Shown one piece after another: positions 6,745-21,762 of a DNA stretch of 22,913 nucleotides; position 1 is the first letter of the stretch; the number at the start of each line of letters is the position of its first letter. The stretch spans positions 1 to 22,913 of the IMG/VR virus record IMGVR_UViG_3300002835_008302, one strand, 5' to 3'. This DNA comes from a virus. The notes under the pieces are model-generated. The model saw only the letters and a program-made list of their open reading frames with translations. It did not search any database and had not been told where the DNA came from. The translations under genes and the position numbers were made by a program.

Positions 6745-7372
6745 GGATACTAAAATCTATTGTTCATTCAGTAAAAATGCGGGAAATAAAGGATGTGAAT
6801 TCTTTAATCCCGCATTTAAAAAATTTAATATTAACGCTATTTATAAATCTTTTTCAGTAGATAATATTGAAAATGCACTAAATAGTGCAAGATATTTAAA
6901 TTTTTCAGGATGTGCAATTGCTATGCCTTATAAAAAAATTGCATTTGAATTGGTAGACAGAAAAGATATAAGTGCAATAAACAGCAAATCAGTAAATACT
7001 ATATTATTTGAAAGCAACAAAATGATCGGATATAATACCGATTACTATGCAACTGAAAAAATTTTAGAACCTAAATTAGATAAATTCAAAGAAATTTTTA
7101 TTCTTGGAAACGGCGGATTAGCCAATGCTGTAATATCTAAATCAAAAGAAATGGGATTTTTAGTAAACAATATTACTAGGAATAACTGGAACCACTTGAA
7201 TTTACTAAAAAATAGTTTAATATTCAATTGTACACCAGTAACTAACATCGTATTTGATAATTCCAACAATTTCATCGATTGTATTGTAGGAACTGATACT
7301 GGAAATTTATTTCATTTAAACCAAGCAATGAAACAGTTTGAAATATATACCGGAATAAAATATGAAGTATAA
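6725..7372 (+). CDS. Shikimate dehydrogenase (AroE)-like protein, short
   Basis: 215 residues, against about 270 for bacterial AroE, yet the diagnostic positions survive. They are a Ser-X-Ser at 14-16 (substrate carboxylate), Lys70 in AIAMPYK (catalytic Lys), Asn91 in SVNTI and Asp106 in GYNTDYYA (catalytic Asp). There is also GNGGLANA (128-135, the nucleotide-binding glycine loop), TRN (151-153) where NADP-dependent members carry their NRT motif, and Gln200 followed by QFEIYTG (204-210). AroE reduces 3-dehydroshikimate to shikimate with NADPH. No other shikimate-pathway enzyme is in the window, so the true substrate may be a cyclic polyol related to the glycan pathway. The start is placed at 6725, 20 bases inside the preceding gene, because the family's N-terminal strand begins within ten residues of it. 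Confidence 0.78.
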   Translation: MSLLVNKDTKIYCSFSKNAGNKGCEFFNPAFKKFNINAIYKSFSVDNIENALNSARYLNFSGCAIAMPYKKIAFELVDRKDISAINSKSVNTILFESNKMIGYNTDYYATEKILEPKLDKFKEIFILGNGGLANAVISKSKEMGFLVNNITRNNWNHLNLLKNSLIFNCTPVTNIVFDNSNNFIDCIVGTDTGNLFHLNQAMKQFEIYTGIKYEV

Positions 7373-8348
7373 ATATGGAATAGGAGTGATGTCAAAGAAC
7401 ATCGTTGACGCTTGTATTGAATATGCAAACGAAAACGATAAACATTTGATTTTTATTCCATCTAGAAGACAAGTAGATTATATCGGAGGATATGTAAATC
7501 ATTGGACCACTGAAGTTTTTTCTAAATATGTAAGAGATCGATCCAGTAATATTTTATTAAAAAGAGATCATGGTGGACCAGGACAAGGATTACACCATGA
7601 TGATGGATTAACATCATTAATTCATGATGCAAACTATTTCGATGCGATCCATATAGATCCGTGGAAAATATCAAAATCTTTTAAAGAAGGATGTATAAAT
7701 ACAAGAAACTTAATTGATCATTGTTTTGATATAAACAATAACATAATATATGAAGTAGGTACCGAGGAGTCTATTTTTAAATATGAATCCCATCAATTGG
7801 AAGAGTTGATTGAATATTTGAAAAAACATTTATCTGTTGAAAAATTTGATAGAATAAAATTTGCAGTAATTCAAAGCGGAACTTCTTTAAAAGAAACAAA
7901 AAATACGGGATCTTATGATAAACAAAGATTATTAGATATGGTTTCAGTATGTAAAAAATATAATCTTTTATCAAAAGAACACAATGGCGATTATTTGCCT
8001 GTTTTTCTTATTTTTGAAAAATTTGAATGTGGATTAGATTCGATCAACATTGCACCAGAATTTGGTCAAATAGAAACTAAAACATATTTACAAGAAATAA
8101 ATAATAACGATTTGTTATTTGAGACTTTTTTTGACATATGTCACGAATCAAAAAAATGGGAAAAATGGGTAAACAAAACTTTTGATCCTTTCACCAATAA
8201 AAAACAATTGATTAATATCTGCGGACACTATGTATTATCAACTAACAGTTTTGTAGATCAGATAAAGAAAAATGTTAGATTTGATATTGACAATATCATT
8301 AAAAATAATATAAAAGATAAATTAAAAGAGTTATATGGAAAAGATTGA
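7362..8348 (+). CDS. GatZ/KbaZ-like (tagatose-bisphosphate aldolase subunit family) TIM-barrel protein
   Basis: 328 residues. The N-terminal pattern fits the GatZ/KbaZ family: a GIGVMSKN strand (6-13), LIFIPSRRQVDYIGGY (29-44, compare the family's 'IEATSNQVNQFGGY'), KRDHGGPGQG (67-76, the family's 'GGDHLGP') and AIHIDPWK (95-102). GatZ/KbaZ are regarded as non-catalytic subunits that stabilise class II tagatose-1,6-bisphosphate aldolase. No GatY/KbaY partner is here, and the protein is about 90 residues shorter than GatZ. A catalytic role on its own is therefore possible, for example an aldolase or C-C lyase reaction on a sugar phosphate. It overlaps the AroE-like gene by 11 bases and the HAD gene by 14, implying a common pathway. 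An alternative start at 7389 follows AGGAG but would remove the first barrel strand. Confidence 0.6.
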   Translation: MKYKYGIGVMSKNIVDACIEYANENDKHLIFIPSRRQVDYIGGYVNHWTTEVFSKYVRDRSSNILLKRDHGGPGQGLHHDDGLTSLIHDANYFDAIHIDPWKISKSFKEGCINTRNLIDHCFDINNNIIYEVGTEESIFKYESHQLEELIEYLKKHLSVEKFDRIKFAVIQSGTSLKETKNTGSYDKQRLLDMVSVCKKYNLLSKEHNGDYLPVFLIFEKFECGLDSINIAPEFGQIETKTYLQEINNNDLLFETFFDICHESKKWEKWVNKTFDPFTNKKQLINICGHYVLSTNSFVDQIKKNVRFDIDNIIKNNIKDKLKELYGKD

Positions 8349-8697
8349 TGTCAAAACAGTATTTCTTGATATAGACGGTACATTAGTTAAACATGAAAAT
8401 CCTAGTAAAACATCTTTACCTTCTCATAAAATGGAGGTTTTAGACGGAACCATTGAAAAGTTATTAGAATGGAATAAAAAAGGATATACTATTATTTTAA
8501 CCACTGGAAGAAGAGAAAGTAATAGAGAAGTTACAGTTAAACAGTTACGAGAATCTGGTATATTTTATGATCATTTGATTATGGGCATTGGAAGAGGTCC
8601 AAGAGTAGTAATAAACGATATAAAACCAGACGGCATGATTACTGCGTATTCGGTAAATGTAGTTAGAAATGAAGGAATTAAAAATGTAGATCTATGA
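8335..8697 (+). CDS. Small HAD-family phosphatase
   Basis: 120 residues with the HAD core and no cap domain. FLDIDGTL (10-17) holds the nucleophile Asp12 and the acid/base Asp14. TTGR (56-59) is motif II. VINDIKPDG (92-100) supplies the C-terminal acidic motif, in a 'ND' rather than 'DD' form. Members of this size in capsule and LPS clusters dephosphorylate sugar or polyol phosphates. It overlaps the GatZ-like gene by 14 bases and the next gene by ATGA, so it probably removes phosphate from an intermediate made by its neighbours. Substrate assignment is inference. Confidence 0.78.
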   Translation: MEKIDVKTVFLDIDGTLVKHENPSKTSLPSHKMEVLDGTIEKLLEWNKKGYTIILTTGRRESNREVTVKQLRESGIFYDHLIMGIGRGPRVVINDIKPDGMITAYSVNVVRNEGIKNVDL

Positions 8698-9809
8698 TTT
8701 ATTTCTGCAACACATTTATTACAGAAACAAAACCTAAAATTGGAAAAGGATATTTAAATCGTGGCAATCTACGACCATTCAATAACTTTGATATTTTTAA
8801 GTATTCTTTAGCAAGTACATCAAAAATATATAATTGGTCTAAAGCAATTCTTAAAATTGAACTTGATGAGTGTTATATACACCGAAAAGAAGAATTAAGT
8901 CAATTTATAAAAGAAGAATTTAAAAATATTCCTTTAGTATTAGATTGGAAACGAAATGTTTATCAAAATGATTGGATTGAATCGTATGATTTATTAAATG
9001 ATCGTTTAATATGGTTTTACTGTAATCACGATCATATTTTTATTGATAGTGATAATTCTCATTTGACTGATATTGTTAATAAAATGGAAAATGACTACGA
9101 AGAATACATCAGTATGGGATATAGTCATTGGCCAGAATGTATAAGAACTGCTAAATTTGGAGGAAGTTCACCTCCATTTGACTCCAAAAGTTATAAATTT
9201 GAAGAAAATTGCATTACAATAAAAAATAATTGTTTTGATAGTATTCAAATTATAACAAAAGAACTATACAAAAATTGGTGGTTCAAAGGCAATTTTAATC
9301 AATATAAATTGCCTAGACCTGATTATTTTGGTATTGGATTAGCAGAAATAAAACCTGTACCCATACATAAAATGTATATACCAATCAAAGAACAATCCAG
9401 ACACTTTGATGGATATCAACATTGTAACCCACCTATATTAAATAATAAATGTCCGGCAATTGAAATACCCCAAGGATTTTTTGAAAATCAAATTAAAATT
9501 GATTATGGATTCGATTCAAGAAACCCAGATGTATCTATTACAAACTTTAATCCAACATCAAAAGACTATTTCGCAGATGATATAAAAGGTACAGATTATA
9601 AATGGATGATAGAAGACATTCCTATGTTTTGGAAAAATAGAGTTTCTAAAATAAATAGAAATGACAATATCGACGAAGAAACTATGATTCAATATAAAAT
9701 TCAATCAGTTCTTAACTTTATCTACTTTGACGGATTTCCAGTAGATTCTATTGTCGAAGAAGCTATTATTAGTCAATACCTAAAAGTTCACCCATCATAT
9801 TCATTATAA
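8694..9809 (+). CDS. Unrecognised protein, possibly a GT-A glycosyltransferase
   Basis: 371 residues; I do not recognise the family. It is soluble, with no signal peptide or membrane segment, and rich in aromatic residues. The segment FYCNHDHIFIDSD (108-120) follows a hydrophobic strand and looks like the metal-binding acidic loop of GT-A transferases, and the neighbours on the right are clear glycosyltransferases. Further landmarks are SMGYSHWPECIRTAKFGGSS (127-146) and a PRPDYFGIG stretch in the middle. The start shares an ATGA with the HAD gene stop. A glycosyltransferase role is a guess from context plus one motif; a sugar-modifying enzyme of another fold cannot be excluded. Confidence 0.5.
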   Translation: MIYFCNTFITETKPKIGKGYLNRGNLRPFNNFDIFKYSLASTSKIYNWSKAILKIELDECYIHRKEELSQFIKEEFKNIPLVLDWKRNVYQNDWIESYDLLNDRLIWFYCNHDHIFIDSDNSHLTDIVNKMENDYEEYISMGYSHWPECIRTAKFGGSSPPFDSKSYKFEENCITIKNNCFDSIQIITKELYKNWWFKGNFNQYKLPRPDYFGIGLAEIKPVPIHKMYIPIKEQSRHFDGYQHCNPPILNNKCPAIEIPQGFFENQIKIDYGFDSRNPDVSITNFNPTSKDYFADDIKGTDYKWMIEDIPMFWKNRVSKINRNDNIDEETMIQYKIQSVLNFIYFDGFPVDSIVEEAIISQYLKVHPSYSL

Positions 9810-9812
9810 ATT

Positions 9813-10682
9813 ATGTTAAAAATATTTTGCAATTTCATGAATGGAGATGATTTTTATAATAATATAAAAACAAATTCTCCAGAGTTATTAGATAAAAATG
9901 TTACTATATTCATTGATAGTCCACCAAAATCAATCGAAGAATTGAGGTTAAATCCTATCAATATTATGGTAGTTCTTGAACCAAATCAATTGTTTGGAAT
10001 ACACGATTTTGTTAAAGCAAATAATCATTTGTTTGATGCAATATTAACATGGGGCGAAACTATATTAAATAGTTGTGATAATTCTATGTTTTTTCCGTTT
10101 GGTGTTAGTTGGTTAGATGAAGAATATATAAATAATGTAGATAATATAGAAAAAAAGTTTGAAGTTTCTTTCTTATGCGGTGCTAAAAAAATGATAGAAG
10201 GACATCATTTAAGACATAGATTATATAATCTAGGACACAAAATAAAAATACCAAAACAATGGCATTACACTTTGGACGATTATACATATAACAACGGACA
10301 TCATACTATTATACAATATACAGGATGTTCTCCTGGCCATGAAAAGAAAAAGTTATGGAATAGTATGTTTTCTATTTGTATAGAAAATTCCAATAATAAT
10401 GGATATCATACTGAAAAAATAATCGATGCGTTTTTATCAAAAACAATTCCAATTTATTGGGGATGTCCTAATTTAGAAGAATTGGGATATGATATGAATA
10501 GTATCATTTATTGTAAAAACGAAGATCAAATAATAGATGTTGTTAACAATCTGACACCAGAATTCTATCTGTCAAAGAAAGAATCTATAGAAAAAAATTT
10601 TATTTTAGCCAAAAACTATTCTAATATTTTTGATAGATTTAGAAATGTTTTAAAAGAATTTATAGAAATAAATAATTTATGA
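9813..10682 (+). CDS. GT10 (alpha-1,3-fucosyltransferase-like) glycosyltransferase
   Basis: 289 residues. The C-terminal half carries the GT10 signature: FSICIENS (186-193), GYHTEKIIDAF (197-207) and TIPIYWGCPN (211-220). These correspond to the GDP-fucose-binding segment of bacterial and animal alpha-1,3/4-fucosyltransferases. The N-terminal half has EPNQ (56-59) and FFPFGVSW (93-100), like the acceptor domain of the family. GT10 enzymes invert configuration and use GDP-beta-L-fucose. Since the window encodes a GDP-mannose 3,5-epimerase-like enzyme and no visible fucose-synthesis gene, a GDP-L-galactose or related donor is a reasonable alternative. The gene begins three A/T bases after the previous stop and ends in an ATGA overlap. 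Confidence 0.85.
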   Translation: MLKIFCNFMNGDDFYNNIKTNSPELLDKNVTIFIDSPPKSIEELRLNPINIMVVLEPNQLFGIHDFVKANNHLFDAILTWGETILNSCDNSMFFPFGVSWLDEEYINNVDNIEKKFEVSFLCGAKKMIEGHHLRHRLYNLGHKIKIPKQWHYTLDDYTYNNGHHTIIQYTGCSPGHEKKKLWNSMFSICIENSNNNGYHTEKIIDAFLSKTIPIYWGCPNLEELGYDMNSIIYCKNEDQIIDVVNNLTPEFYLSKKESIEKNFILAKNYSNIFDRFRNVLKEFIEINNL

Positions 10683-10882
10683 GAAATATACTTACATTGG
10701 AAAATTACATTAATATGATGTTTACGGAAAACAAACATCATTTAGACGAACTGTTAAAAATTGTAACATCGTTACACCCAGACAAAAATCAACCAGATAA
10801 ATTAGAGGGAAATTGTATGTATGACAATTGCACTACTAATATAAATCCATTATTTTACAACAAACTATATTCACCAACATAA
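10679..10882 (+). CDS. Small hypothetical protein
   Basis: 67 residues, no recognised family. It looks translated because its ATG overlaps the stop of the GT10-like gene (ATGA) and it fills the space to the next gene exactly. The N-terminal half could form a helix. The second half contains CMYDNC (46-51), a Cys-X4-Cys pair that might bind metal, and ends in a polar, Asn-rich tail. It has no membrane segment. A short remnant of a longer gene is also possible. Confidence 0.5.
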   Translation: MRNILTLENYINMMFTENKHHLDELLKIVTSLHPDKNQPDKLEGNCMYDNCTTNINPLFYNKLYSPT

Positions 10883-10900
10883 AATAGGAAAAATTCAAAA

Positions 10901-11848
10901 ATGAAAATTATTACATTATTTTGTAATGTCACCACGGAAAAATTTTTAGAAATCACATCTGAAATAGAAGGATATAAAAAAATCGGATTCAGTAACAATG
11001 ATCAAAAAAGATATAAAGAATATTGCGATCTTGCGATCAATAGTTTTAAAAAATGGAATCCGGATATTGAAGTTGTATATTTAAATGACGATAATATATT
11101 AGATTATATAAAATTATTTGGATGTAAACTAATTAATAGTCCAATTGGTCAGAAATTTAATCTCGGATTAGAAGTAATGAAATATTTCAAAGCCGATAAA
11201 TTAATAATTTTAGATGTAGATACAATTACATGTTCTAGACTTGATGAAATGATTGACAATAACGAACATGATATATTAGTTAGTTTAAATTATAATATCC
11301 AAGAAGGAAATGAATATTTTACAAGTCCTCATTTTACTTTAGAATTTGAAAATAATATTACTATTAAAGACAGCGCTAATATAAATTCTGGAGTCGTATG
11401 TTTTAACAATATAAAAGCGTTAGAAAAAGCTTTAGAACTTACAATTATTCATCCAAATTATTTTGGAGATCAAGGCGCATTAAACGAATTATTATGGTCG
11501 CATGGAACATTTACATATAAAATCTTAGATGGTCCGTGGCCTTTAAGTGAAGTGTCTTATAATGTAAGATCAAAGGGGGTAAATTTTACAGAACAAATTT
11601 TTCAATTAGCAAAAAATAATAATGGACAAAGTTATATTTCAAGATATTATGTAAAGGACAATAAACTGTTTACACCGGATGACAAACACATTAAAGTTTG
11701 GCATCTAGCAGAAGGCATGCATGGCAGATCCAATGAAAAATTTGAAGAACTAACAAAAATAATAAAAACAATTTTATTCAATAAAGAAACTGTAAAATTT
11801 TTTAGAGAAAAATGTGACGGTGATTCGTTTTTTAATATAGACATATAA
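10901..11848 (+). CDS. GT8-like glycosyltransferase (GT-A fold)
   Basis: 315 residues. LIILDVDTI (101-109) is the DXD site preceded by the hydrophobic strand typical of GT8 and related retaining enzymes. NSGVVCFN and GDQGALNE follow in the family's order (acceptor-side Asn-Ser-Gly, then Asp-Gln). KVWHLAEG near the C-terminus matches the third metal-ligand histidine region. This suggests a retaining transfer of glucose or galactose from an NDP-sugar, although the donor is not certain. An AGGAAAA stretch lies upstream of the ATG in the 18-base gap, a weak Shine-Dalgarno-like element. Confidence 0.78.
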   Translation: MKIITLFCNVTTEKFLEITSEIEGYKKIGFSNNDQKRYKEYCDLAINSFKKWNPDIEVVYLNDDNILDYIKLFGCKLINSPIGQKFNLGLEVMKYFKADKLIILDVDTITCSRLDEMIDNNEHDILVSLNYNIQEGNEYFTSPHFTLEFENNITIKDSANINSGVVCFNNIKALEKALELTIIHPNYFGDQGALNELLWSHGTFTYKILDGPWPLSEVSYNVRSKGVNFTEQIFQLAKNNNGQSYISRYYVKDNKLFTPDDKHIKVWHLAEGMHGRSNEKFEELTKIIKTILFNKETVKFFREKCDGDSFFNIDI

Positions 11849-11849
11849 T

Positions 11850-13160
11850 ATGGAAGAAATACTAAATTCAATAAAAACTTATTTTTTAGAAAAACACTCT
11901 AATAAAAAATGGGAAGCAGGAAAAGATTGGGTGCAATATGCAGGTCCATTCTTCGATGAAAAAGAATATATTGCCGCAGTTAAATCGCTGTTGAATGAAT
12001 GGTTGGTCTTAGGACAAGATGCAATTACATTCGAAACTCATTTTCCAAAATTATTTAATAAAGAATATGGAATTTTAACAAATAGTGGAAGTAGCTCTAA
12101 CTTATTAATGATGTTATCAATGACATCAAAAAGACTATATAATCTCCCTAAAGGAACCAAAGTAATTACTCCTATTGCAGGATTTCCTACTACTTTAAAT
12201 CCTATTTTCCAAGTAGGATTTGAACCAGTATTTGTTGATATTGATTTAGATACATTAAACCTCAACTTAGATCAAGTTGAAGAAGTAGCAAAGAAAGGAG
12301 CAAAAATCATTACATTTGCTCATGTGTTGGGCAACCCACCCAATATGAACCGTTTGATGGAAATAGTTAAACAATACAATTTAATTCTATTGGAAGACTG
12401 TTGTGATGCGCTTGGTTCAACTTATAATGGTAAACCACTTGGTAGTTTTGGAGAACTAGCAAGTTGCAGTTTCTATCCTGCACATCACATGACTATGGGT
12501 GAAGGTGGATTTGTTGTATGTAATACAAAAATTCAAGAAATTGTTACTCGTAGTTTCCGTGAATGGGGTCGTGGATGTTATTGTGTTGGTAAAAAAGCAA
12601 ATCTACTAAAAAATGGTAGTTGTGGAAATAGATTTTCTAATTGGTTACCTGAACTTCCAGATGAGATCTTTGACCATAAATACGTTTATGACGAAATCGG
12701 ATATAATCTAAAACCAATTGAATTACAAGCTTCTATCGGTTTAGAACAAATGAAGAAATTGCCTGAAATTCATCGTAGAAGAAAGGAAAATCATTCAAGG
12801 TTAGTTAACATTTTTAAACCATATGAAGAGTTTTTCATTCTACCAAAAGCAACTGATTTATCCGATCCAAGTTGGTTTGCGTTTGCAGTAACAATTAAAG
12901 ATAATTCTAAATTCAAAAGAAAAGATATTGTTGGATTTTTAGAATCAAATAAAATTCAAACCAGACCATATTTTGCTGGCAATATTATGTTACAACCAGC
13001 ATATAATGGACTAATCGATAAAAATGAAGTTATTACAAAGTATCCAAACGCAAGGAAAATTACTACCGATACATTCTTTCTTGGAACTAGTCCTGTAATT
13101 ACTTCTACCCAATTAGATTACGTACAAAGTATCGTAGAATCATATTTCAAGACAATTTAA
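11850..13160 (+). CDS. RfbH/E1-type NDP-4-keto-6-deoxyhexose 3-dehydrase (PLP, [2Fe-2S]), DegT family
   Basis: 436 residues of the DegT/DnrJ/EryC1/StrS fold. SFYPAHHMTMGEGG (207-220) has His-His where sugar aminotransferases carry the PLP-binding Lys. This is the hallmark of CDP-6-deoxy-4-keto-glucose 3-dehydrase (E1, RfbH/AscC/YerC) and ColD. Cysteines at 185, 243, 245 and 258 reproduce the E1 cluster motif C-X57-C-X1-C exactly; the last spacing is X12 instead of X7. The YVYDEIGYNLK region near 280 also matches E1. The family removes the C3 hydroxyl using PMP and one-electron transfer from a reductase (E3). No E3 gene is visible here. A downstream RmlB-like gene would supply the 4-keto-6-deoxy substrate. 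The nucleotide (CDP or dTDP) is undetermined. Confidence 0.87.
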   Translation: MEEILNSIKTYFLEKHSNKKWEAGKDWVQYAGPFFDEKEYIAAVKSLLNEWLVLGQDAITFETHFPKLFNKEYGILTNSGSSSNLLMMLSMTSKRLYNLPKGTKVITPIAGFPTTLNPIFQVGFEPVFVDIDLDTLNLNLDQVEEVAKKGAKIITFAHVLGNPPNMNRLMEIVKQYNLILLEDCCDALGSTYNGKPLGSFGELASCSFYPAHHMTMGEGGFVVCNTKIQEIVTRSFREWGRGCYCVGKKANLLKNGSCGNRFSNWLPELPDEIFDHKYVYDEIGYNLKPIELQASIGLEQMKKLPEIHRRRKENHSRLVNIFKPYEEFFILPKATDLSDPSWFAFAVTIKDNSKFKRKDIVGFLESNKIQTRPYFAGNIMLQPAYNGLIDKNEVITKYPNARKITTDTFFLGTSPVITSTQLDYVQSIVESYFKTI

Positions 13161-13176
13161 AAAAAAGTTTCTAATA

Positions 13177-13200
13177 TATGTATATATATGTATATACATA
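13177..13200. repeat. AT-rich inverted repeat (10-bp arms, 4-base loop)
   Basis: In the 47-base gap between the 3-dehydrase and the RmlB-like gene, TATGTATATA (13177-13186) and TATATACATA (13191-13200) form perfect 10-bp arms around a TATG loop. The inner part 13187-13200 is also a 14-bp perfect palindrome. An A-run lies just upstream (13159-13166) and there is no T-run after it, so it is not a plus-strand intrinsic terminator. It could be a regulator site, an mRNA end or processing site, or simply alternating TA sequence. Confidence 0.45.
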
Positions 13201-13207
13201 AATCATT

Positions 13208-14173
13208 ATGTCAAATCAAAAAATTGTATATATTACAGGATGTCTGGGTTTTATTGGATCTTATGTTACTAGAGAATGTCTAGATAAAGGGTGGTATGTT
13301 AAAGGAATTGATAAAATTACATATGCTGCCCAACCAGACATTCTAAAAGAATTCAATAAATATAAAAATTTTAGTTTTGATCAGACTGATATAAATGATT
13401 TAGATAGATTGATAGATTGTGACTATTTCATTAATGTTGCTGCGGAATCACATGTAGACAATTCAATTAGAAAAAGTGACGACTTTGTTCACTCTAATAT
13501 TAACGGTGTACACAATATACTAGAGTTATTAAAAAACTATAATAAACAAGGTCAAGTAAAACCATTATTAATACATTTTAGTACAGATGAAGTTTATGGT
13601 GATATCGAACAAGGCAACCACATTGAAACTGATATATTGAAACCAAGTAATCCATATGCAGCAACAAAAGCGGCAGCAGATCAGTTAATATTGGCATGGG
13701 CACGAACATATGATGTAAAATATGTAATCGTTAGACCAACAAATAATTACGGTATTGGACAATATGTCGAAAAATTAATACCAAAAACATGTAAATATAT
13801 TACTTTAGGCAGAAAAGTACCACTTCACAATAACGGCACTCCAATTAGAAATTGGTTACATGCAAAAGATACTGCGAGAGGAATTATAAAGATCATAGAA
13901 TCCGGTGTTGAAAATGACATTTATAATATTGCCGGAGGATTTGAACAATCAAACATAATTACAGTAGAGAAAATAATTAAAGAATATTTAGGAGAATTGC
14001 CATCTGATTATAAAGAAAAATATTTAGATTTTTCTATACAACGTGTAGGACAAGATGTAAGATATGCATTGAATGATAATAAATTACGTTCATTAGGATG
14101 GGAACCAATTTGTAAATTCGACACTGAATTAAAAGAAATTGTAAATCATTATAAAAATAATTTTATATGGTAA
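13208..14173 (+). CDS. RmlB-like NDP-glucose 4,6-dehydratase
   Basis: 321 residues, an extended short-chain dehydrogenase. It has NAD-binding GCLGFIG (11-17), AAESHVD (78-84), STDEVYG (125-131, with the active-site Thr-Asp-Glu), YAATK (150-154, catalytic Tyr and Lys), RPTNNYG and a C-terminal LGWEP. The AAESHVD and STDEVYG motifs are those of dTDP-glucose 4,6-dehydratase, which converts NDP-glucose to NDP-4-keto-6-deoxyglucose through internal hydride transfer. Directly after the E1-like 3-dehydrase gene it would supply that enzyme's substrate. CDP-glucose dehydratase (RfbG) is the usual partner of E1, so which nucleotide is used is open. It starts with an ATG after a 47-base gap. Confidence 0.88.
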   Translation: MSNQKIVYITGCLGFIGSYVTRECLDKGWYVKGIDKITYAAQPDILKEFNKYKNFSFDQTDINDLDRLIDCDYFINVAAESHVDNSIRKSDDFVHSNINGVHNILELLKNYNKQGQVKPLLIHFSTDEVYGDIEQGNHIETDILKPSNPYAATKAAADQLILAWARTYDVKYVIVRPTNNYGIGQYVEKLIPKTCKYITLGRKVPLHNNGTPIRNWLHAKDTARGIIKIIESGVENDIYNIAGGFEQSNIITVEKIIKEYLGELPSDYKEKYLDFSIQRVGQDVRYALNDNKLRSLGWEPICKFDTELKEIVNHYKNNFIW

Positions 14174-14224
14174 ATTATTAATTTCATTGTATGATATTTA
14201 ATTTATTGATGAATCATTAAAATT

Positions 14225-15982
14225 ATGAACAAGATTAGAGTTTCAGATTATATTGTCAAATTTTTAGAAAATAAAGGCATTAAATACGCATTTCAAGTTC
14301 CTGGCGGAGGAGCAATGTTTTTAAATGATTCTATTGCAAAAAGCAATATAAAACCTGTATTTTGTCACCATGAACAGTCATGTGCAATGGCAGCAGTAGG
14401 ATATACTAAACTTACAAATGAAGTATCTTTAGTAATACCTACGTCAGGATGTGGAGGCACCAATGTAATAACTGGACTTCTTGATGCATGGCAAGATAGT
14501 CACAAACTAATAGTAATATCTGGACAAGTAAATAAAAAAGATACCACATATTTAAAAAATATACCATTAAGAAAATTGGGAATACAAGAAGTAAACATAG
14601 TAAAAATAATAAACTCTATTACAAAATATTCTACTATGATTGAAAATGCAAATGATATTGCATATGAATTAGAAAAAGCATATCACATTTGTTCAACGGG
14701 AAGACACGGACCAGTTTGGATTGATGTTCCTTTAGATATACAATCTTCTTATATTGAAGAAGATAATCTTAATCATTTTCAACCTGAGAATAATTTACTA
14801 GAATTAAAAGAATCAGATACATTCAAAAAATATTTATTTGAATCAAAAAGACCAATTATTATAGCTGGAAACGGTGTATATTTGGCCGATTGTAAAGAAA
14901 AATTTACAAAATTTGTAGAGAAATATCAAATCCCAGTAGCATGTACATTTCTAGGAATAAATATATTGGAAGAAAATCATTCTCTTTATGTAGGAAGAAT
15001 AGGCCTAAAAGGAACTAGAGCAGGAAATTTTGCAGTAGCAAATTCTGATTTGATAATATCAATTGGTAGCTCTTTGAGTATTCCTGCAACAGGATTTCAA
15101 TATCATCTGTTCGGAAGAGAAGCAAAAATAATTGCAATTGATATTGATAAAAATGAACATTCAAAAAATACGGTAAAAATTGATGATATAATCAACCAAG
15201 ATATTTCTGATTTTTTATCATTAAATCTAGATTTAGATTATAAAGTTCCGGTTAATTGGATAGAAAAATGTCAATCGTGGAAAAATAAATGGAATACATT
15301 TGATAGAAAAGACATTGACAATTTAAACATGTATTCTTTTTCCAAAAAATTAGGAGAAATAACTAAAAATATCAAATCGGTTGTAGTAACAGATGCTGGT
15401 TCTGCGAATTATGTTTTATGTCAAAGTTTAATAAATAATAGATTAATAGTACCTGCAGCGCAAGGCGAAATGGGATTTATGATCCCAGGATGTATAGGAG
15501 TTAGTCTTGGTGTTAAAAATGAAAATGTAATCGGAGTAACAGGAGAAGGATCTTTTCAATTTAATATTCAAGAATTACAAACTATTATTCAAAACAAATT
15601 ACCTATAAAAATGTTTATATTGAACAACGGTGGTTATTTATGTATAAAAAATACACAAATAAAATTTTTCAATAAAAACTTTTCTGGAGTGGATGAAAAT
15701 TCTGGAATTTCATTTCCTGATCCCGAAAAAATAGCTAATGCATATGGAATAAAATTTAAAAGAATACTTAATATTAAAGAATTAAATGATAATTTAGAAA
15801 CTATTATAAGTTATAATGGTCCGTATTTATGTGAAATCATGTGTCCTTCAGATGAAGAAATATATCCGACATCTGCTACTATTAAAACTGAAGATGGCAA
15901 ACTTATTTCACAACCATTAGAAAATATGTCACCGTTTTTATCAAAAGAAGAATTTGAAAAAGAAATGATAGTTAAAATATAA
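14225..15982 (+). CDS. Thiamine-diphosphate enzyme, acetolactate synthase/YerE-like
   Basis: 585 residues with the three-domain layout of acetohydroxyacid synthase-like enzymes. The N-terminal Pyr domain has VPGGGAMF (25-32) and CHHEQSCAMAA (47-57), with the cofactor-activating Glu50. GPVWIDVPLD (162-171) closes the domain. The middle domain (about 200-335) has IIIAGNGV. The C-terminal PP domain has GEGS (440-443) and LNNGGY (466-471), 24 residues apart, the ThDP-Mg motif with Glu in place of the usual Asp. In the neighbourhood of a 4,6-dehydratase and an E1-like 3-dehydrase, the best-known relative is YerE, which adds a two-carbon unit from pyruvate to C4 of CDP-4-keto-3,6-dideoxyglucose. 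Other carboligase or decarboxylase reactions are possible. It follows a 51-base AT-rich gap in which I see no clear signal. Confidence 0.82.
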   Translation: MNKIRVSDYIVKFLENKGIKYAFQVPGGGAMFLNDSIAKSNIKPVFCHHEQSCAMAAVGYTKLTNEVSLVIPTSGCGGTNVITGLLDAWQDSHKLIVISGQVNKKDTTYLKNIPLRKLGIQEVNIVKIINSITKYSTMIENANDIAYELEKAYHICSTGRHGPVWIDVPLDIQSSYIEEDNLNHFQPENNLLELKESDTFKKYLFESKRPIIIAGNGVYLADCKEKFTKFVEKYQIPVACTFLGINILEENHSLYVGRIGLKGTRAGNFAVANSDLIISIGSSLSIPATGFQYHLFGREAKIIAIDIDKNEHSKNTVKIDDIINQDISDFLSLNLDLDYKVPVNWIEKCQSWKNKWNTFDRKDIDNLNMYSFSKKLGEITKNIKSVVVTDAGSANYVLCQSLINNRLIVPAAQGEMGFMIPGCIGVSLGVKNENVIGVTGEGSFQFNIQELQTIIQNKLPIKMFILNNGGYLCIKNTQIKFFNKNFSGVDENSGISFPDPEKIANAYGIKFKRILNIKELNDNLETIISYNGPYLCEIMCPSDEEIYPTSATIKTEDGKLISQPLENMSPFLSKEEFEKEMIVKI

Positions 15983-15998
15983 AAGAAATAACATTATA

Positions 15999-16027
15999 TT
16001 GACAGTCACGGATTTAAATGACAGAAT
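15999..16027 (+). promoter_or_regulatory. Candidate sigma70-type promoter before the LdpA-like gene
   Basis: The 71-base gap before 16054 has a consensus -35 hexamer TTGACA (15999-16004), a 17-base spacer and CAGAAT (16022-16027), four of six matches to the -10 consensus. It is the longest non-coding stretch on the plus strand of the window. The -35 box lies inside the palindrome TGACAGTCA (16000-16008) and the -10 box overlaps the inverted repeat at 16017-16036, an operator-like arrangement. It is motif-based only. Confidence 0.35.
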
Positions 16028-16036
16028 ACAGTCATT
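16017..16036. repeat. Inverted repeat AATGAC-N8-GTCATT
   Basis: Six-base perfect arms (16017-16022 and 16031-16036) flank eight bases. Nearby TGACAGTCA (16000-16008) shares TGACAG and CAGTCA with it, so the same half-site words occur as a compact palindrome and again as a spaced one. Such a pair fits a dimeric regulator site over the candidate promoter, but short repeats in AT-rich DNA can be chance. Confidence 0.35.
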
Positions 16037-16053
16037 GATTAGTAGATAATAAA

Positions 16054-17211
16054 ATGAAAACACGATTTGAAATCTTACAAGACATTATTCACAAAGAACA
16101 ATGTTTTAAAATGATATGTGGAGCAGGAAACGAAGATAAAAGTCAAGTAAAAAAATTGGCTTTTATTTATACTTTAGCAGGTACAAAAATTTTAGATGTA
16201 TCTGCTAATGTTGATATTGTAAAATCTGCAATGGAAGGAATTAATTTGGCATATGAATATGCTCATAAGTTAAATGTAACAATTGAACATAGACCATATA
16301 TTATGGTTAGCGTTGGTATGCCAGGAGATCCACATGTAAGAAAATCATTTATCGATCCAAATAAATGTATTTCATGTACATTATGTATTCCTATATGTCC
16401 AACCGACGCAATTCCAAAAAACTTTACTAAAAATTTAGACTTTTTTAAAAATCTAAATGGATCATTTGAATTGGAAGATCAATCAAAAGAAATTGTTATT
16501 AAAGATCTTTGCATTGGATGTGGTAAATGTAGCAGTATTTGTCCAAAGTCAGATATCATATCATACCGACATAATGCAAGAGAAGTAAACAAACTATTAC
16601 CAAAATGTATGGATGCGGGAGCAGAGTTATTTGAACTCCATGCAGCAGTTGGTGAGGATGATATCACATTACAGGAATGGAAACTTATTAACGAAATCAA
16701 TCCAACAAATTACAATTCTATGTGTTTGGATAGATTGAATCTTGGAAATCTGAGACTTGAACATAGAATTCAAGAAGCAAAAAAAGTATCAGGCAATCGT
16801 TTAATGATTCAGGCAGATGGATATCCCATGAGTGGCGGAGAAGACGATTATAACACCACTTTACAAGCAATTGCATGTGCGGATGTTGTAAATAAGAAAT
16901 TCAACATGAGGATTGATAAAAAACGTGGTGTAGATAAGCTCGGAAAACCAAAGATATCTTCAAAGAAAATTTATAAAGATATAAATGATATAGATAATAT
17001 TCCACTCCTAATTTCAGGAGGAACAAATTCATTTAGTAAAGAATTGGCTGAAAAAGCAGGTGTAAGAATTAATGGTGTGTCAATCGGAACATTTGCTAGG
17101 GATTTAATTGAAGAATTCATCATATCAAATGATTTCTATAACAATGATGAATTAATCAAACTTGCATTTTTAAACGCAAAAGAATTAATTAACAAAAGTA
17201 ATAAACAATAA
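16054..17211 (+). CDS. LdpA-like protein: TIM-barrel with two [4Fe-4S] clusters
   Basis: 385 residues resembling cyanobacterial LdpA (light-dependent period protein) from end to end. The N-terminal barrel part has FKMICGAGNED (18-28) and YTLAGTKILDVSAN (39-52), like LdpA and plastid Ycf23. A ferredoxin-like insert has two complete cluster motifs: Cys105-X2-108-X2-111-X3-115-Pro and Cys153-X2-156-X2-159-X3-163-Pro. The C-terminal part has ELFELHAAVGED, QADGYPMSGGEDD and LLISGGTNSF, then SIGTFARDLIEEF, all LdpA features. LdpA in cyanobacteria senses redox state for the circadian clock; its enzymatic activity is not settled. In this operon it could be an electron donor or enzyme for the neighbouring [2Fe-2S] 3-dehydrase pathway. 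That link is inference. No transmembrane segment is seen. Confidence 0.8.
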   Translation: MKTRFEILQDIIHKEQCFKMICGAGNEDKSQVKKLAFIYTLAGTKILDVSANVDIVKSAMEGINLAYEYAHKLNVTIEHRPYIMVSVGMPGDPHVRKSFIDPNKCISCTLCIPICPTDAIPKNFTKNLDFFKNLNGSFELEDQSKEIVIKDLCIGCGKCSSICPKSDIISYRHNAREVNKLLPKCMDAGAELFELHAAVGEDDITLQEWKLINEINPTNYNSMCLDRLNLGNLRLEHRIQEAKKVSGNRLMIQADGYPMSGGEDDYNTTLQAIACADVVNKKFNMRIDKKRGVDKLGKPKISSKKIYKDINDIDNIPLLISGGTNSFSKELAEKAGVRINGVSIGTFARDLIEEFIISNDFYNNDELIKLAFLNAKELINKSNKQ

Positions 17212-17216
17212 AATAT

Positions 17217-17597
17217 ATGAAACAATTAGTTATAGCAGTCGATTTTGATGGCACTCTATGTGAATATGCATTTCCATCTATTGGAAAACAGACAGAACAA
17301 CAGAAAAATCTATTGGATCTTTTAATTAAACTAAAAGAAAAAGGTCATTACTTAATTCTATGGACCAACAGAGGAGACAATGAAAAATTTAAATGTTTAT
17401 CCGAAGCAATTGAATGGTGTAAACAACAAGGGTTGGAATTTGACCAGATCAATAAAAATAATCCAGAAAGAGAAGCAAAAAAATTATCAGGATCTAGCCC
17501 TAAAATATTAGCAGATTTTTATATAGATGATAAAGCTCTTCAATTTAATAATGAGTTAACCAGAACAAAAACTTTAGAATTCTTATCTGCATTGTGA
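17217..17597 (+). CDS. Small HAD-superfamily hydrolase
   Basis: 126 residues. VDFDGTL (8-14) carries the nucleophile Asp9 and Asp11, WTNRG (49-53) is motif II, and DFYIDDKA (100-107) is the metal-binding acidic motif IV. It is a core HAD fold without a cap, distinct in sequence from the HAD protein at 8335. Proteins of this size are common in phages and in capsule clusters as phosphatases of sugar or nucleotide phosphates. It follows the LdpA-like gene by five A/T bases and shares its TGA with the GTG start of the next gene. Confidence 0.75.
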   Translation: MKQLVIAVDFDGTLCEYAFPSIGKQTEQQKNLLDLLIKLKEKGHYLILWTNRGDNEKFKCLSEAIEWCKQQGLEFDQINKNNPEREAKKLSGSSPKILADFYIDDKALQFNNELTRTKTLEFLSAL

Positions 17598-18427
17598 ATA
17601 TATTAGTTACAGGCGCAAATGGTTTTATTGGTTCAAATATAATAAAATTATTGTCTAACGATATTAATTTCAATCTTTTTAAAGGTACTAGAGATAGTAT
17701 AGACTTATATTCAATTGATAGTATAGAAAAATATATATACAAAAATCAAATAAATGCGGTTATTCATTGTGCAATTGAAGGTGGAAGTAGATTAAAACAA
17801 GATACATATGAAATATTTTATAGAAATATATTAATGTATGAAAATTTAATTAAATTTAATGATAGATATAAAATATTTATTAATTTTGGTTCCGGAGCAG
17901 AATTTGATAGAAGATATGATATATCAAATGTAAATGAATGTGATATATTTAATGTAATTCCAACAGATTTTTATGGATTATCAAAAAATATCATTTCAAA
18001 ATTATCTATGTATGATAATGAATGTATAAATCTAAGAATATTTGGTTGTTTCTATCACAACGAATTATCTACAAGATTTATAAGAAATAATATAAACAAT
18101 TATATAAATAATAAACCAATCATTATACATCAAGACAGATACATGGATTTTTTTTACATGGAAGATTTAGCTAATGTAGTTAAATATTTTTTAAAAAATC
18201 CAGTTGTAAATTACAAAGACATTAATATGTCCTACGTAAAAAAGTATAAATTGAGCGATATTGCAAATATAATTAATCAATTATCCACACATAAAGTAAA
18301 TATTAATATAGAAAATAAATTATTTGGATTAAGTTATACTGGAAATGGAATGCAATTAAATTCTTTAGGATTAAATTTAAAAGATATTGAATTTGGCATA
18401 AAAGAATGTTATAATAAACTTGTATGA
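17594..18427 (+). CDS. NAD(P)-dependent sugar epimerase/reductase (extended SDR)
   Basis: 277 residues. It starts with GTG inside a GTGA overlap with the HAD gene; the nucleotide-binding motif GANGFIG (7-13) needs this start. FGSGAEFD in the middle supplies the active-site Ser region and FYGLSK the catalytic Tyr-XXX-Lys, with Leu-Arg-Ile-Phe-Gly further on, as in NDP-sugar 4-ketoreductases and epimerases. A role as a ketoreductase finishing a deoxysugar made by the upstream 4,6-dehydratase and 3-dehydrase is plausible but not provable from the sequence. It is shorter than RmlB-like enzymes and very AT-rich. Confidence 0.8.
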   Translation: MNILVTGANGFIGSNIIKLLSNDINFNLFKGTRDSIDLYSIDSIEKYIYKNQINAVIHCAIEGGSRLKQDTYEIFYRNILMYENLIKFNDRYKIFINFGSGAEFDRRYDISNVNECDIFNVIPTDFYGLSKNIISKLSMYDNECINLRIFGCFYHNELSTRFIRNNINNYINNKPIIIHQDRYMDFFYMEDLANVVKYFLKNPVVNYKDINMSYVKKYKLSDIANIINQLSTHKVNINIENKLFGLSYTGNGMQLNSLGLNLKDIEFGIKECYNKLV

Positions 18428-19341
18428 ATATTAAAATAATGTTTCATTTAATGCCTTGGGAATTAGATCTCGCCGAATTAGCATTCGACCAATTAGCAAA
18501 ATCAAAAAAATATTTAGATGTTAATGATAAAATATATGTCCACGTTGCATTAAATTTATCAAGTTATATAATAAATTGGAACGAATCGTCTATAAAAAAA
18601 GACTTTTTCATAGATAAATACAACAGATTATTGAAGTATTTAGATGAATATGAATTAATAAGCAAAATATATAATGATGACAAACTATATGGTCATCTAG
18701 ATCTTCAAAAAGAAATAATTCAAGACGATATAGATTACTATATAAATGTATGTCCCGACATGTATTTTCATACACATACTCTTCACTATTTAATACAATC
18801 AGCAAAAAATTTAAAAGATCGTTATTTTATAATAACAACCGAAACACCTAAACTTTGGGATTATACTTGGGATATATTAGCAAACAAAAACTTTAACTCG
18901 GTTAAATATGTTGATTGGGAGTCACAAAATATCAACGATATAATACACATCATTGACAATAATGATGAAACTCCGTATCTTGACAAAATAGTACAATTCA
19001 AATATGCGGGTTGGTTTGATTTGTATAACAAAAATTTTTACGAAAAATTTATACCATGTATGCCTGATTGGCATGGTTATGGACCTTGGGATTTTTTTGG
19101 TATGAATGTTGCAAATTTTGCGAGAACCAATTATAAAACCGAAATAAATCAATACATCTTAAGAAATCAAATTATATGTGAAAGAAATTTAGGAATTTTC
19201 CAAAAAAAATTAAGTCCTAACATATATAAAAAATATTTAAAACTAAATGATATTCCAGATCAAAGAAAAACATTTGAATCAAAATTTCAAGAATATTTTT
19301 TAAATTGGAAAGATTACGCTTTTAAAAATAAAATACTATGA
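18424..19341 (+). CDS. Unrecognised protein, probable GT-A glycosyltransferase-like
   Basis: 305 residues with no family I recognise with certainty. The N-terminal strand IKIMFHLMPWE (3-13) and YINVCPDMYFH (106-116) resemble a GT-A nucleotide-binding start and a DXD-like loop with a single Asp. FIITTETPKLWD (135-146) and WHGYGPWDFFGMNVA in the C-terminal half are striking Trp-rich segments of the kind that shape acceptor sites. It is soluble, without signal peptide. Four-base overlaps tie it to the reductase upstream and the glycosyltransferase downstream. The role is inferred from context. Confidence 0.5.
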   Translation: MNIKIMFHLMPWELDLAELAFDQLAKSKKYLDVNDKIYVHVALNLSSYIINWNESSIKKDFFIDKYNRLLKYLDEYELISKIYNDDKLYGHLDLQKEIIQDDIDYYINVCPDMYFHTHTLHYLIQSAKNLKDRYFIITTETPKLWDYTWDILANKNFNSVKYVDWESQNINDIIHIIDNNDETPYLDKIVQFKYAGWFDLYNKNFYEKFIPCMPDWHGYGPWDFFGMNVANFARTNYKTEINQYILRNQIICERNLGIFQKKLSPNIYKKYLKLNDIPDQRKTFESKFQEYFLNWKDYAFKNKIL

Positions 19342-20264
19342 GTAAATTTATTGTTACGACGACTATTAATAAACCAACTACAGCTACACTTAAATATTGT
19401 GATATAGCAGTTAAAAAGAATTGGAAGTTTGTTATTGTTGGAGATTTGAAAACTCCTCATGACGAATATAAAGCATTAGAGAATGATAATGTAATTTATT
19501 TGTCACCAGAAAAACAAGAATCTTTTTGTAAAGAATTGAGTGATATTATTGGATGGAGAACTATTCAACGAAGAAATATTGGATTTGTATATACATACAG
19601 ACAAGGTGCAGATTTAATTGCAACAGTAGATGATGACAATATTCCATATGAAAATTGGGGTGACAATATATTAGTAGATAAAGAAGTTGAAGTAGACATT
19701 TATACTAACTTATATAGTAATTATTTTGATCCGATTTCAGTAACAAATTGTAATGATCTCTGGCATAGAGGATATCCCATCGAATGCCTAAATGTTAAAA
19801 ACAATAATGAATATAAAGGTAAATTTAAACGCAATGTATTAATTCAAGCCGATTTTTGGGATGGTGATCCTGATATAGACGCAATTTGTAGATTGAGTAA
19901 AAAACCAATAGTAAAATTTAACAAATTTGATCCATTTGCATCAACTCAACTTGCACCGTTTAATTCACAAAATACATTCTTATCAAGAAAAGTATTGCCA
20001 TTTTATGCAGTTTTACCATATATAGGAAGAATGGATGATATATGGGGAAGTTATATTACACAACATTATTTCCCAAACAGTGTTGTTTATAATAAAGCTA
20101 CTGTATATCAAGAAAGAAATGTTCAAGATCTAATTAAAAACATGGAAAATGAAGTAATTGGATACAGAAATACATTTAAATTATTAAATGACCTTTCAAA
20201 TTATAAATCTTATCTTCCAGAACAAACAATCAAATTTTGGGAATCTTATAGAAATCAATTTTAA
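19338..20264 (+). CDS. STELLO/reversibly glycosylated polypeptide-like GT-A protein
   Basis: 308 residues. The N-terminus FIVTTTINKPT (4-14), FVIVGDLKTP (31-40), RRNIGFVYTYRQGADLIATV (78-97) and the DDDN motif (98-101) match the STELLO/DUF288 group. YTNLYSNYFDP, the HRGYP segment, a WDGDPDIDAICR segment and GRMDDIWGSYI are reminiscent of plant reversibly glycosylated polypeptides (GT75, UDP-arabinopyranose mutase). The DDD site would bind metal and NDP-sugar. The activity could be a glycosyltransferase or an NDP-arabinose mutase; the sequence does not decide. Start is in an ATGA overlap. Confidence 0.68.
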   Translation: MSKFIVTTTINKPTTATLKYCDIAVKKNWKFVIVGDLKTPHDEYKALENDNVIYLSPEKQESFCKELSDIIGWRTIQRRNIGFVYTYRQGADLIATVDDDNIPYENWGDNILVDKEVEVDIYTNLYSNYFDPISVTNCNDLWHRGYPIECLNVKNNNEYKGKFKRNVLIQADFWDGDPDIDAICRLSKKPIVKFNKFDPFASTQLAPFNSQNTFLSRKVLPFYAVLPYIGRMDDIWGSYITQHYFPNSVVYNKATVYQERNVQDLIKNMENEVIGYRNTFKLLNDLSNYKSYLPEQTIKFWESYRNQF

Positions 20265-20267
20265 TAT

Positions 20268-21143
20268 ATGAAATTATCAGCTGTTATAGTATCACGAAAC
20301 GACAATTATGGTGGAAATTTAATTGAACGATCTTCATATTGTTTCAATTCAATGATAGATACATTTGATGAAGTCTTTTATATCGATTGGAATAGTGAAA
20401 CAAAAAGTCTTCTAAATGAAGTAAAACAAAATATCCAATTCAAAGGTAACTTTCATCACATTGTTATTGAACCAAAAATAGCAAAAATGTTAACCAACTT
20501 TGATGTAGAAGCACAAAAATGTTGTGAGGTATTAGGAAGAAATATTGGTATTAGAAGAGCTACAGGAGATTGGATCGTATCTACAAATATAGATATTATC
20601 GCACCAAGACGAAAAGATCTTGAAGATACAATAAATCAACTAGATAAAAATACATTTTATACTGTAAGTAGAAGAGATGCGGAACTTCCTAATATTCAGC
20701 AGTTTAATAAAGATAATAATTACGAAGAGTATAAAAATTGGAAAGATGTAAGAGAATATTTAATAAATAATAGTGAAGAAAGACACTATGAAGAAAAAAC
20801 CATGCAAGGAGATGATTATAGTATGGTAAATTGTTGTGGCGATTTTCAATTAGCACCAAATAATATATGGAATGATATTCGTGGAATGGAAGAAGATTTG
20901 ATATACGCATTATATGCAGACACAAATGTACAGAAAAAAGCAGTAATGCACGGATACGGATTAAAAGCTATTTATAATCCTGCATTCTTCCATATAAATC
21001 ATGGAAGAGGTGGAGGTGGATTCTTAACAGGAGTAAATAGAAAAGCAAATGATATGTATAGAGCAATCGTATATCAAAACAAAACACAAAACAAAGATAA
21101 TTGGGGATTTTCCGATATTGATATTGAATATGAAAAAATATGA
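20268..21143 (+). CDS. GT2-like glycosyltransferase
   Basis: 291 residues. SAVIVSRNDNYG (4-15) is a GT2-type opening strand, FYIDWNS (37-43) the first acidic strand, and GIRRATGDWIVSTNIDIIAP (94-113) the helix plus strand leading to the metal-binding loop, with NID in place of DXD. A Gly-rich HGRGGGGF segment lies near the C-terminus. This kind of protein occurs in glycan islands of phages and bacteria; the donor is unknown. The start follows the preceding stop by three A/T bases with no Shine-Dalgarno, and the end overlaps the next gene by four bases. Confidence 0.7.
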   Translation: MKLSAVIVSRNDNYGGNLIERSSYCFNSMIDTFDEVFYIDWNSETKSLLNEVKQNIQFKGNFHHIVIEPKIAKMLTNFDVEAQKCCEVLGRNIGIRRATGDWIVSTNIDIIAPRRKDLEDTINQLDKNTFYTVSRRDAELPNIQQFNKDNNYEEYKNWKDVREYLINNSEERHYEEKTMQGDDYSMVNCCGDFQLAPNNIWNDIRGMEEDLIYALYADTNVQKKAVMHGYGLKAIYNPAFFHINHGRGGGGFLTGVNRKANDMYRAIVYQNKTQNKDNWGFSDIDIEYEKI

Positions 21144-21472
21144 TACCTATTATATTAATATACACATTTTTATTAGTAATATGGTTTAATACAGAAGCAT
21201 TTGTTGAATATAGTCATATATTAAAACTTAAATGGTTCAAAGTAAATGATTATTTGAATGCAAAAGAAACAGATTTTACACTCACATATCATTCATATCT
21301 ATTACAAAAACATAATAGTTTTTTTACTAGATTGATTACATGTCCATTTTGCTTGAATTTTTGGATGATTTTAATAGGAAAATTTATTTTTGGTTATTCG
21401 TTTCTAGAAATACCTACTATTTATGTAACATCACTAATTACATATTTTGTATTCAATAAGTTATCACCATGA
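21140..21472 (+). CDS. Small membrane protein with a CPFC motif
   Basis: 110 residues. One membrane segment at about 2-17, another around 72-86 and a third at 90-106, with a ~50-residue polar stretch between the first and second. ITCPFCLNFW (66-75) is a CXXC pair at the start of the second membrane segment, as in small phage/bacterial proteins of the DUF1360 type; that assignment is tentative. Its function is unknown. It is coupled to both neighbours by ATGA overlaps. Confidence 0.6.
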   Translation: MIPIILIYTFLLVIWFNTEAFVEYSHILKLKWFKVNDYLNAKETDFTLTYHSYLLQKHNSFFTRLITCPFCLNFWMILIGKFIFGYSFLEIPTIYVTSLITYFVFNKLSP

Positions 21473-21762
21473 GAATCTCCAATTTAAATGAATTATACAA
21501 TTATATCAAAACAAAAGAACAATTAACATCCAATGGAAGTTTAATGCAAATATGTGCTTGTGTAGATCAATTTAAAAATATATGCAGTTGTAAAGCAAAA
21601 GAAAAAGGTCAAAAATTATTTGACTGTAATAACAAATATGTTTCTACAATAAATAACATTGACCAACAAACTATAGATTTATTGTTCTCAGTAACAGATG
21701 ACAAATCAATAGAATTTTATGATAATTCTATTCACATCAAAACTATTTCAGTATCTCCTTAA
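21469..21762 (+). CDS. Small Cys-containing hypothetical protein
   Basis: 97 residues, no recognised family. It contains CACVDQFKNICSCK (29-42), five residues short of a classic zinc-knuckle layout but with four closely spaced cysteines, plus a further Cys at 53. The sequence is otherwise polar and helical in the first half. It is the last gene of the plus-strand run. Its last 20 bases overlap the end of the convergent dNMP kinase gene, so there is no room for a classical bidirectional terminator. Confidence 0.6.
   Translation: MRISNLNELYNYIKTKEQLTSNGSLMQICACVDQFKNICSCKAKEKGQKLFDCNNKYVSTINNIDQQTIDLLFSVTDDKSIEFYDNSIHIKTISVSP

Follow-up and report, generated by a model that had tools for sequence, protein, structure and literature searches.

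A viral gene cassette with a YerE-like carboligase probably serves the synthesis of a branched-chain deoxysugar

We analysed a 22,913-nucleotide stretch of viral DNA (hereafter the window), the 22.9-kb IMG/VR virus record IMGVR_UViG_3300002835_008302, and found that it carries a sugar cassette by which the phage probably makes an activated 4-C-branched 3,6-dideoxysugar for glycosylation; all substrates and products named below are predictions from enzyme families. Four open reading frames (ORFs) lie at positions 11850–17211, all on the plus strand and tightly packed, as a first-pass annotation made from the letters alone had described. That annotation also had the enzyme classes right, although it listed the RmlB-like gene ahead of the 3-dehydrase; the true order is an E1-type 3-dehydrase, an RmlB-type 4,6-dehydratase, a thiamine diphosphate (ThDP)-dependent enzyme and an LdpA-like protein. 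The same run extends without a real gap into genes for a HAD phosphatase (17217–17597) and a short-chain dehydrogenase/reductase (SDR; 17594–18427). Because a large glycosyltransferase island surrounds the cassette and the window contains T4-type clamp-loader, deoxynucleoside monophosphate kinase and dUTPase genes, we regard the phage as T4-like, in agreement with the earlier view. The idea that the E1, 4,6-dehydratase and YerE-like set follows a yersiniose-type logic is supported by protein families and by phylogeny, and the pathway first proposed for these genes is thereby partly supported.

The first gene (11850–13160, plus strand) encodes an E1-type (RfbH) pyridoxamine phosphate (PMP)/[2Fe-2S] 4-keto-6-deoxysugar 3-dehydrase. 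The protein exceeded the cut-off of the curated RfbH model NF011936 (464.6 bits against 423), and its best solved relatives were the E1 structures 3bcx and 3bb8 (E ~1e-100), with ColD (E ~1e-54) and aminotransferases trailing far behind, which upholds its assignment as an E1 enzyme rather than an aminotransferase. At the position where aminotransferases have a lysine, the protein carries His212-His213 within the motif YPAHH, and PAHH is present without exception in 64 viral E1 ORFs. The [2Fe-2S] ligands are Cys185-X57-Cys243-X1-Cys245 together with Cys258; the histidine and the first three cysteines had been recognized before, Cys258 is added here, and all four cysteines are invariant across the aligned viral E1 proteins (n = 12). 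Family, PMP-site histidine and [2Fe-2S] cysteines are thus common to the window enzyme and RfbH/AscC, the CDP-6-deoxy-threo-hexulose 3-dehydrase, whereas the window E1 has no E3 partner, its substrate is probably borne on another nucleotide and its fourth cysteine is spaced X12. The spacing of this cysteine in the literature E1 motif is X7. E1 alone also occurs in deposited cyanophages.

The second gene (13208–14173, plus strand) encodes a protein with STDE and YxxxK motifs, for which TIGR01181 was by far the best model (300.7 bits), the CDP-glucose model TIGR02622 reaching only 72.4 bits. Because the score lies below the TIGR01181 cut-off of 365.1, we name the protein an RmlB-type nucleoside diphosphate (NDP)-glucose 4,6-dehydratase and not RmlB. 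Its PDB matches were dTDP-glucose dehydratases. Judging by these family scores, dTDP (or UDP) is a likelier carrier of the sugar than CDP.

The product of the third gene (14225–15982, plus strand) has an acetolactate synthase (ALS) fold by domain search and matches TIGR00118 at E = 3.6e-106, as would be expected if it were a true acetolactate synthase (AHAS) of branched-chain amino acid synthesis, encoded by an 'ilvB' auxiliary gene with unrelated sugar genes as neighbours. Surveys of auxiliary metabolic genes, such as PMC8226683, also record ilvB in viruses; between them, PMC10653327 and PMC8226683 name both rfbH/ascC and ilvB as viral genes of this kind. We consider this explanation extremely improbable, and rejected it on the model score and on the position of the protein in the tree. 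The TIGR00118 match amounts to 355.9 bits, below the curated cut-off of 538.35, and no gene for an ACT-type regulatory subunit was seen adjoining the ThDP gene. Among solved structures, the best matches were 8rph (352 bits) and 5ahk, which we take to be PpYerE (257 bits), with acetolactate synthases at 226 bits or less. The first of these is JanthE, a YerE-like enzyme (PMC12188165), and a PpYerE structure exists (PMC12247030). Two regions of JanthE, one around NNxGYLxIKxTQ and the other a C-terminal extension with the tail DGxLxSxPLExxSP, are also found in the phage enzyme; the alignments to AHAS and PpYerE extend to neither of them. In a maximum-likelihood tree, AHAS and YerE-like enzymes were split with support of 100/98, and the viral proteins grouped with JanthE (100/99). 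Because the tree places the viral proteins with JanthE and AHAS apart, the ThDP enzyme is, on sequence grounds, YerE-like by descent, as first suggested, and not a housekeeping acetolactate synthase. The catalytic-Glu motif HHEQ is present, and the ThDP/Mg-binding motif GDG is replaced by a non-canonical GEG at residues 440–442 (15542–15550, plus strand), which is not the CDG of JanthE either.

To place the cassette among its relatives, we scanned IMG/VR viral contigs with two ThDP alignments, which yielded more than 120 loci and, after de-duplication, 87 ThDP proteins (L161, L175 and L185 among them); here and below, loci are related by descent and are not independent events, the contigs are fragments, and gene presence refers to the fetched stretch. 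E1 and RmlB genes often accompany the viral ThDP genes (54 and 70 of the 87 loci, respectively), which also argues against an AHAS. The ThDP motif is CDG in 51 of the 87 proteins, GEG in 24 (the window included), GDG in 10, ADG in 1 and unresolved in 1. CDG, described as unusual in JanthE (PMC12247030, PMC12188165), is thus the majority state of the viral set and common to JanthE and many viral relatives, and GEG prevails in the window ThDP clade (6 of 7 members) and its sister clade, Hc (16 of 16). In one locus, L005, a frameshift or an assembly error has divided the ThDP gene between overlapping ORFs of 343 and 245 amino acids (7447–9205). No YerE-like gene was found in deposited phages, where the ThDP matches listed all had ~25–32% identity and were mostly annotated as, or resembled, host acetolactate synthases; no published YerE-like phage gene was found in the open-access literature, and neither the LdpA-like protein nor the aldolase-family protein HpcHb (see below) had a match in 50,697 deposited phage records. 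The expectation that such a set would be new in a phage therefore holds for deposited phages but not for uncultivated viral contigs, in which it is common.

Together, these enzymes would allow the following pathway. The RmlB-type enzyme would convert glucose, most likely as dTDP-glucose, to an NDP-4-keto-6-deoxyhexose, from which E1 would remove the 3-hydroxyl with electrons from a host ferredoxin or flavodoxin and its reductase. The YerE-like enzyme would decarboxylate an alpha-keto acid and add the acyl group to the C4 ketone, giving a tertiary alcohol, after which the SDR could reduce the side-chain ketone and the many glycosyltransferases in the window could use the sugar. The candidate keto-branch reductase is a plus-strand RmlD/GalE-type SDR (PF01370, PF04321), and the majority of loci with both E1 and ThDP genes have an SDR gene 3′ of the HAD gene. 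The scheme resembles, at the level of sequence, the known YerE-like carboligases (YpYerE, PpYerE, ErwE and JanthE) of yersiniose A and erwiniose synthesis, in which a ThDP lyase that adds an acyl group to a ketone is likewise clustered with E1 and a 4,6-dehydratase. It differs from those pathways in being viral, in having a dTDP-type rather than a CDP-type dehydratase, in the GEG motif, in lacking an E3 and in its neighbours, an LdpA-like module and HpcH aldolases that are specific to individual clades. Several points weigh against the proposed pathway: known E1 and YerE work concerns CDP sugars, but the window dehydratase is of a dTDP-like class, from which the carrier is deduced; the change from GDG to GEG might, in principle, make the cofactor bind less well; PpYerE sits on a long branch, so that its exact placement is uncertain; and some ThDP loci are without E1 or RmlB in the fetched fragments.

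The electron supply of E1 had been noted as a gap, since the usual E3 reductase was not seen. Indeed, the E3-type NAD domain PF00175 was absent from the window and from 64 related viral records except for one FNR-like gene in L010, and neither PF00111 nor a Fer2 domain was found in 20 records tested, all fragments, the window itself being without PF00111. Because no standard E3 was found in the 65 viral records, host carriers are the likelier electron source; a host supply is plausible, as ferredoxin or flavodoxin systems of a general kind serve SpnQ, a homologue of E1. The first-pass annotation had instead linked the LdpA-like protein to E1, and a 2[4Fe-4S] protein that replaces E3 and feeds E1 within one integrated pathway would fit the adjacency of the genes, the two [4Fe-4S] motifs, the missing E3 and the FNR-like reductase that adjoins the LdpA-like module in L010. 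The distribution of the gene speaks otherwise. A HAD phosphatase gene always adjoins it and an HpcH-type aldolase gene usually does, and most E1+ThDP viral loci (40) have no LdpA-like gene in the fetched stretch; conversely, eight viral LdpA-like loci, together with SAR11 and other cellular loci, have no E1 or ThDP genes and carry a cytidylyltransferase instead. The protein is, moreover, modelled as a whole TIM barrel and not as a small ferredoxin. Because the LdpA-like gene occurs without E1 while those 40 loci do without it, we do not regard its product as the dedicated reductase of E1; a role as E3 substitute is very unlikely and was rejected on co-occurrence.

The fourth gene (16054–17211, plus strand) encodes a homologue of LdpA, a cyanobacterial clock input protein, rather than LdpA itself, as the match to NF045992 (E = 1.5e-41, 142.7 bits) stays below the cut-off of 450. 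Homology extends over ~345 residues and includes the same two CxxCxxC...C [4Fe-4S] motifs (Cys105, 108, 111 and 115; Cys153, 156, 159 and 163); the phage protein differs in that its kind is found beyond the cyanobacteria, among phages, SAR11 and further bacteria, where the genes belong to sugar loci and not to clock loci. An AlphaFold2 model built from 34 sequences (mean pLDDT 89.4, pTM 0.80) predicts a TIM barrel in which an insertion following strand 3 holds the 2[4Fe-4S] segment. All fold matches to the model (Foldseek/VIA) were TIM barrels, ribulose-phosphate epimerase among them (Z 17.8, r.m.s.d. 3.1 over 205 residues), and because many of these score alike, the searches point to no one relative and to no particular cofactor (FMN or other).

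In genome contigs, LdpA-like loci were found with a hand-made degenerate pattern, as a scan with the viral LdpA alignment gave chance matches only. In all 23 viral loci, a HAD gene directly follows the LdpA-like gene, and an HpcH/HpaI-type aldolase gene usually adjoins as well; in the window, the HAD-family phosphatase is BT0820-like and on the plus strand (NF046079, 89.9 bits, below the cut-off of 165). A cytidylyltransferase lies nearby in none of the 14 loci with ThDP genes and in 8 of the 9 without, the ninth (L013) being cut at its left end. SAR11 contigs show the same aldolase-LdpA-HAD-cytidylyltransferase order, with the CTP_transf_3 domain confirmed. The LdpA-like gene and the HAD gene are therefore a separate, swappable module. 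Aldolase-family, HAD phosphatase and CTP_transf_3 genes of SAR11 and some phage modules recall CMP-Kdo/nonulosonate-type pathways, from which they differ by an HpcH-type aldolase instead of KdsA or NeuB and by the extra Fe-S TIM barrel; the window itself has no cytidylyltransferase. Viral-type LdpA was found in 1 of 398 Pseudomonadota and 2 of 197 Pelagibacteraceae genomes searched. Shorter LdpA-like proteins occur in Gastranaerophilales and other metagenome-assembled genomes (L025, L026, L031, L046 and L051, among others); Gastranaerophilales are often classed as non-photosynthetic Cyanobacteriota. LdpA has been reported as cyanobacteria-only (PMC5520375). In L010, an FNR-type FAD/NAD reductase gene (11525–12247) directly follows the HAD gene of the LdpA-like module and is the only gene of its type in the 65 viral records; a role as electron donor of the LdpA-like enzyme is possible. 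On an Omnitrophota contig, a neighbour of the LdpA-like gene (L023, 4517–5410) looked FNR-like by eye, had no Pfam hit and was not used as evidence.

The aldolases point to what the carboligases may use as donor. The relatives of the window hold three kinds of HpcH/HpaI-family gene, here called HpcHa, HpcHb and HpcHc. Aligned to Escherichia coli YfaU, HpcHa has all HpaI active-site residues (the His base, the Arg and the Glu and Asp metal ligands), whereas HpcHb and HpcHc keep the Glu and Asp ligands and have lost the His and Arg. One ThDP clade, with the GDG motif, has HpcHa in all of its 7 members, another has HpcHc throughout, and the CDG clades have no aldolase of this family; aldolase kind requires only 6 Fitch parsimony changes on the ThDP tree, against a mean of 28 and a minimum of 22 in shuffles. 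An apparent restriction of HpcHa to JanthE-side ThDP enzymes in the first 13 loci (6/6 versus 0/7) was superseded when the larger set narrowed the link to the single GDG clade. That aldolase type follows ThDP clade suggests that different branches are grafted. ErwE, itself YerE-like, uses 4-hydroxy-2-oxo acids (PMC12247030). HpcH/HpaI aldolases make products of this class, and by this analogy they may supply the donor of the ThDP enzyme.

The window once had such an aldolase. Compared with its nearest relative, L002, it is collinear over 11882–14178 (84.5% identity) and again from 15954 (88%), a position inside the L002 HpcHb gene; between the two parts, L002 has ThDP2-HpcHa-HpcHb and the window only its own ThDP gene. 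At 15984–16049 on the plus strand, the window retains a fossil of the HpcHb 3′ end, the last 22 codons with the stop, in frame, aligning to the L002 HpcHb end with a local score of 92, against a maximum of 45 in 500 shuffles. The fossil speaks against HpcHb being simply absent. Sequence comparison thus indicates that a recombination swapped the ThDP block and cost the window its aldolase, and because of the collinearity break and the fossil we regard the tight four-gene run as a product of that recombination. The LdpA-like protein, HAD phosphatase and HpcH-type aldolase would form a separate module that makes or modifies a phosphorylated keto acid, and in the window, with the aldolase lost, it may be idle or supplied from another part of the phage genome or by the host.

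A more specific scheme would have these three enzymes make a 2-keto-3-deoxy acid that is CMP-activated where a cytidylyltransferase is present and serves as the YerE-like donor where E1 and ThDP genes are present, giving a long branch, like that of erwiniose. The alternation of cytidylyltransferase and ThDP genes among LdpA-like loci, the canonical HpcHa active site throughout one ThDP clade and the donor preference of ErwE (PMC12247030) are in its favour. Yet L083 and L085, of the window's own ThDP clade, have no aldolase or LdpA-like genes nearby, HpcHb is without the catalytic His and Arg of HpaI, the counts come from loci related by descent, and the window, its aldolase lost, may simply use pyruvate; we regard this shared keto acid as unlikely. 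The branched-sugar pathway itself, with whichever donor, is the reading that we prefer. More broadly, we put forward only tentatively, and with rather more doubt than belief, that phages hold a diversified, exchangeable branched-sugar system in which a constant E1/RmlB core is combined with YerE-like carboligases, whose ThDP motifs are non-canonical (CDG, GEG), and with donor modules that can be swapped. Among the latter would be a new Fe-S TIM-barrel enzyme of the LdpA family, making a keto acid together with a HAD phosphatase and an HpcH aldolase; if so, LdpA itself would belong to a family of sugar-acid enzymes. The LdpA family, so far known for a clock input protein, in any case gains an enzymatic context and a predicted fold. 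The data also suggest that some viral 'acetolactate synthase' (ilvB) genes of surveys are branched-sugar carboligases, a relabelling that would change how such auxiliary genes are read. The relatives form a large natural collection of ThDP enzymes that may accept ketones, in which the requirement for the canonical motif is directly testable.

Beyond the cassette, window positions 8217–22913 compared with L002 show patches of 72–89% identity alternating with unrelated genes, and because of this strong mosaicism we consider the sugar island to be reshuffled between close phages. A second conserved module lies at 4828–8697, with parts found again in L010 and L020. It comprises a cupin, nucleotidyltransferase and kinase-like fusion (4828–6744), a truncated AroE-like protein (6725–7372), a protein without a Pfam match that by eye resembles a TIM barrel of the class II aldolase type (7362–8348) and a small HAD protein (8335–8697).

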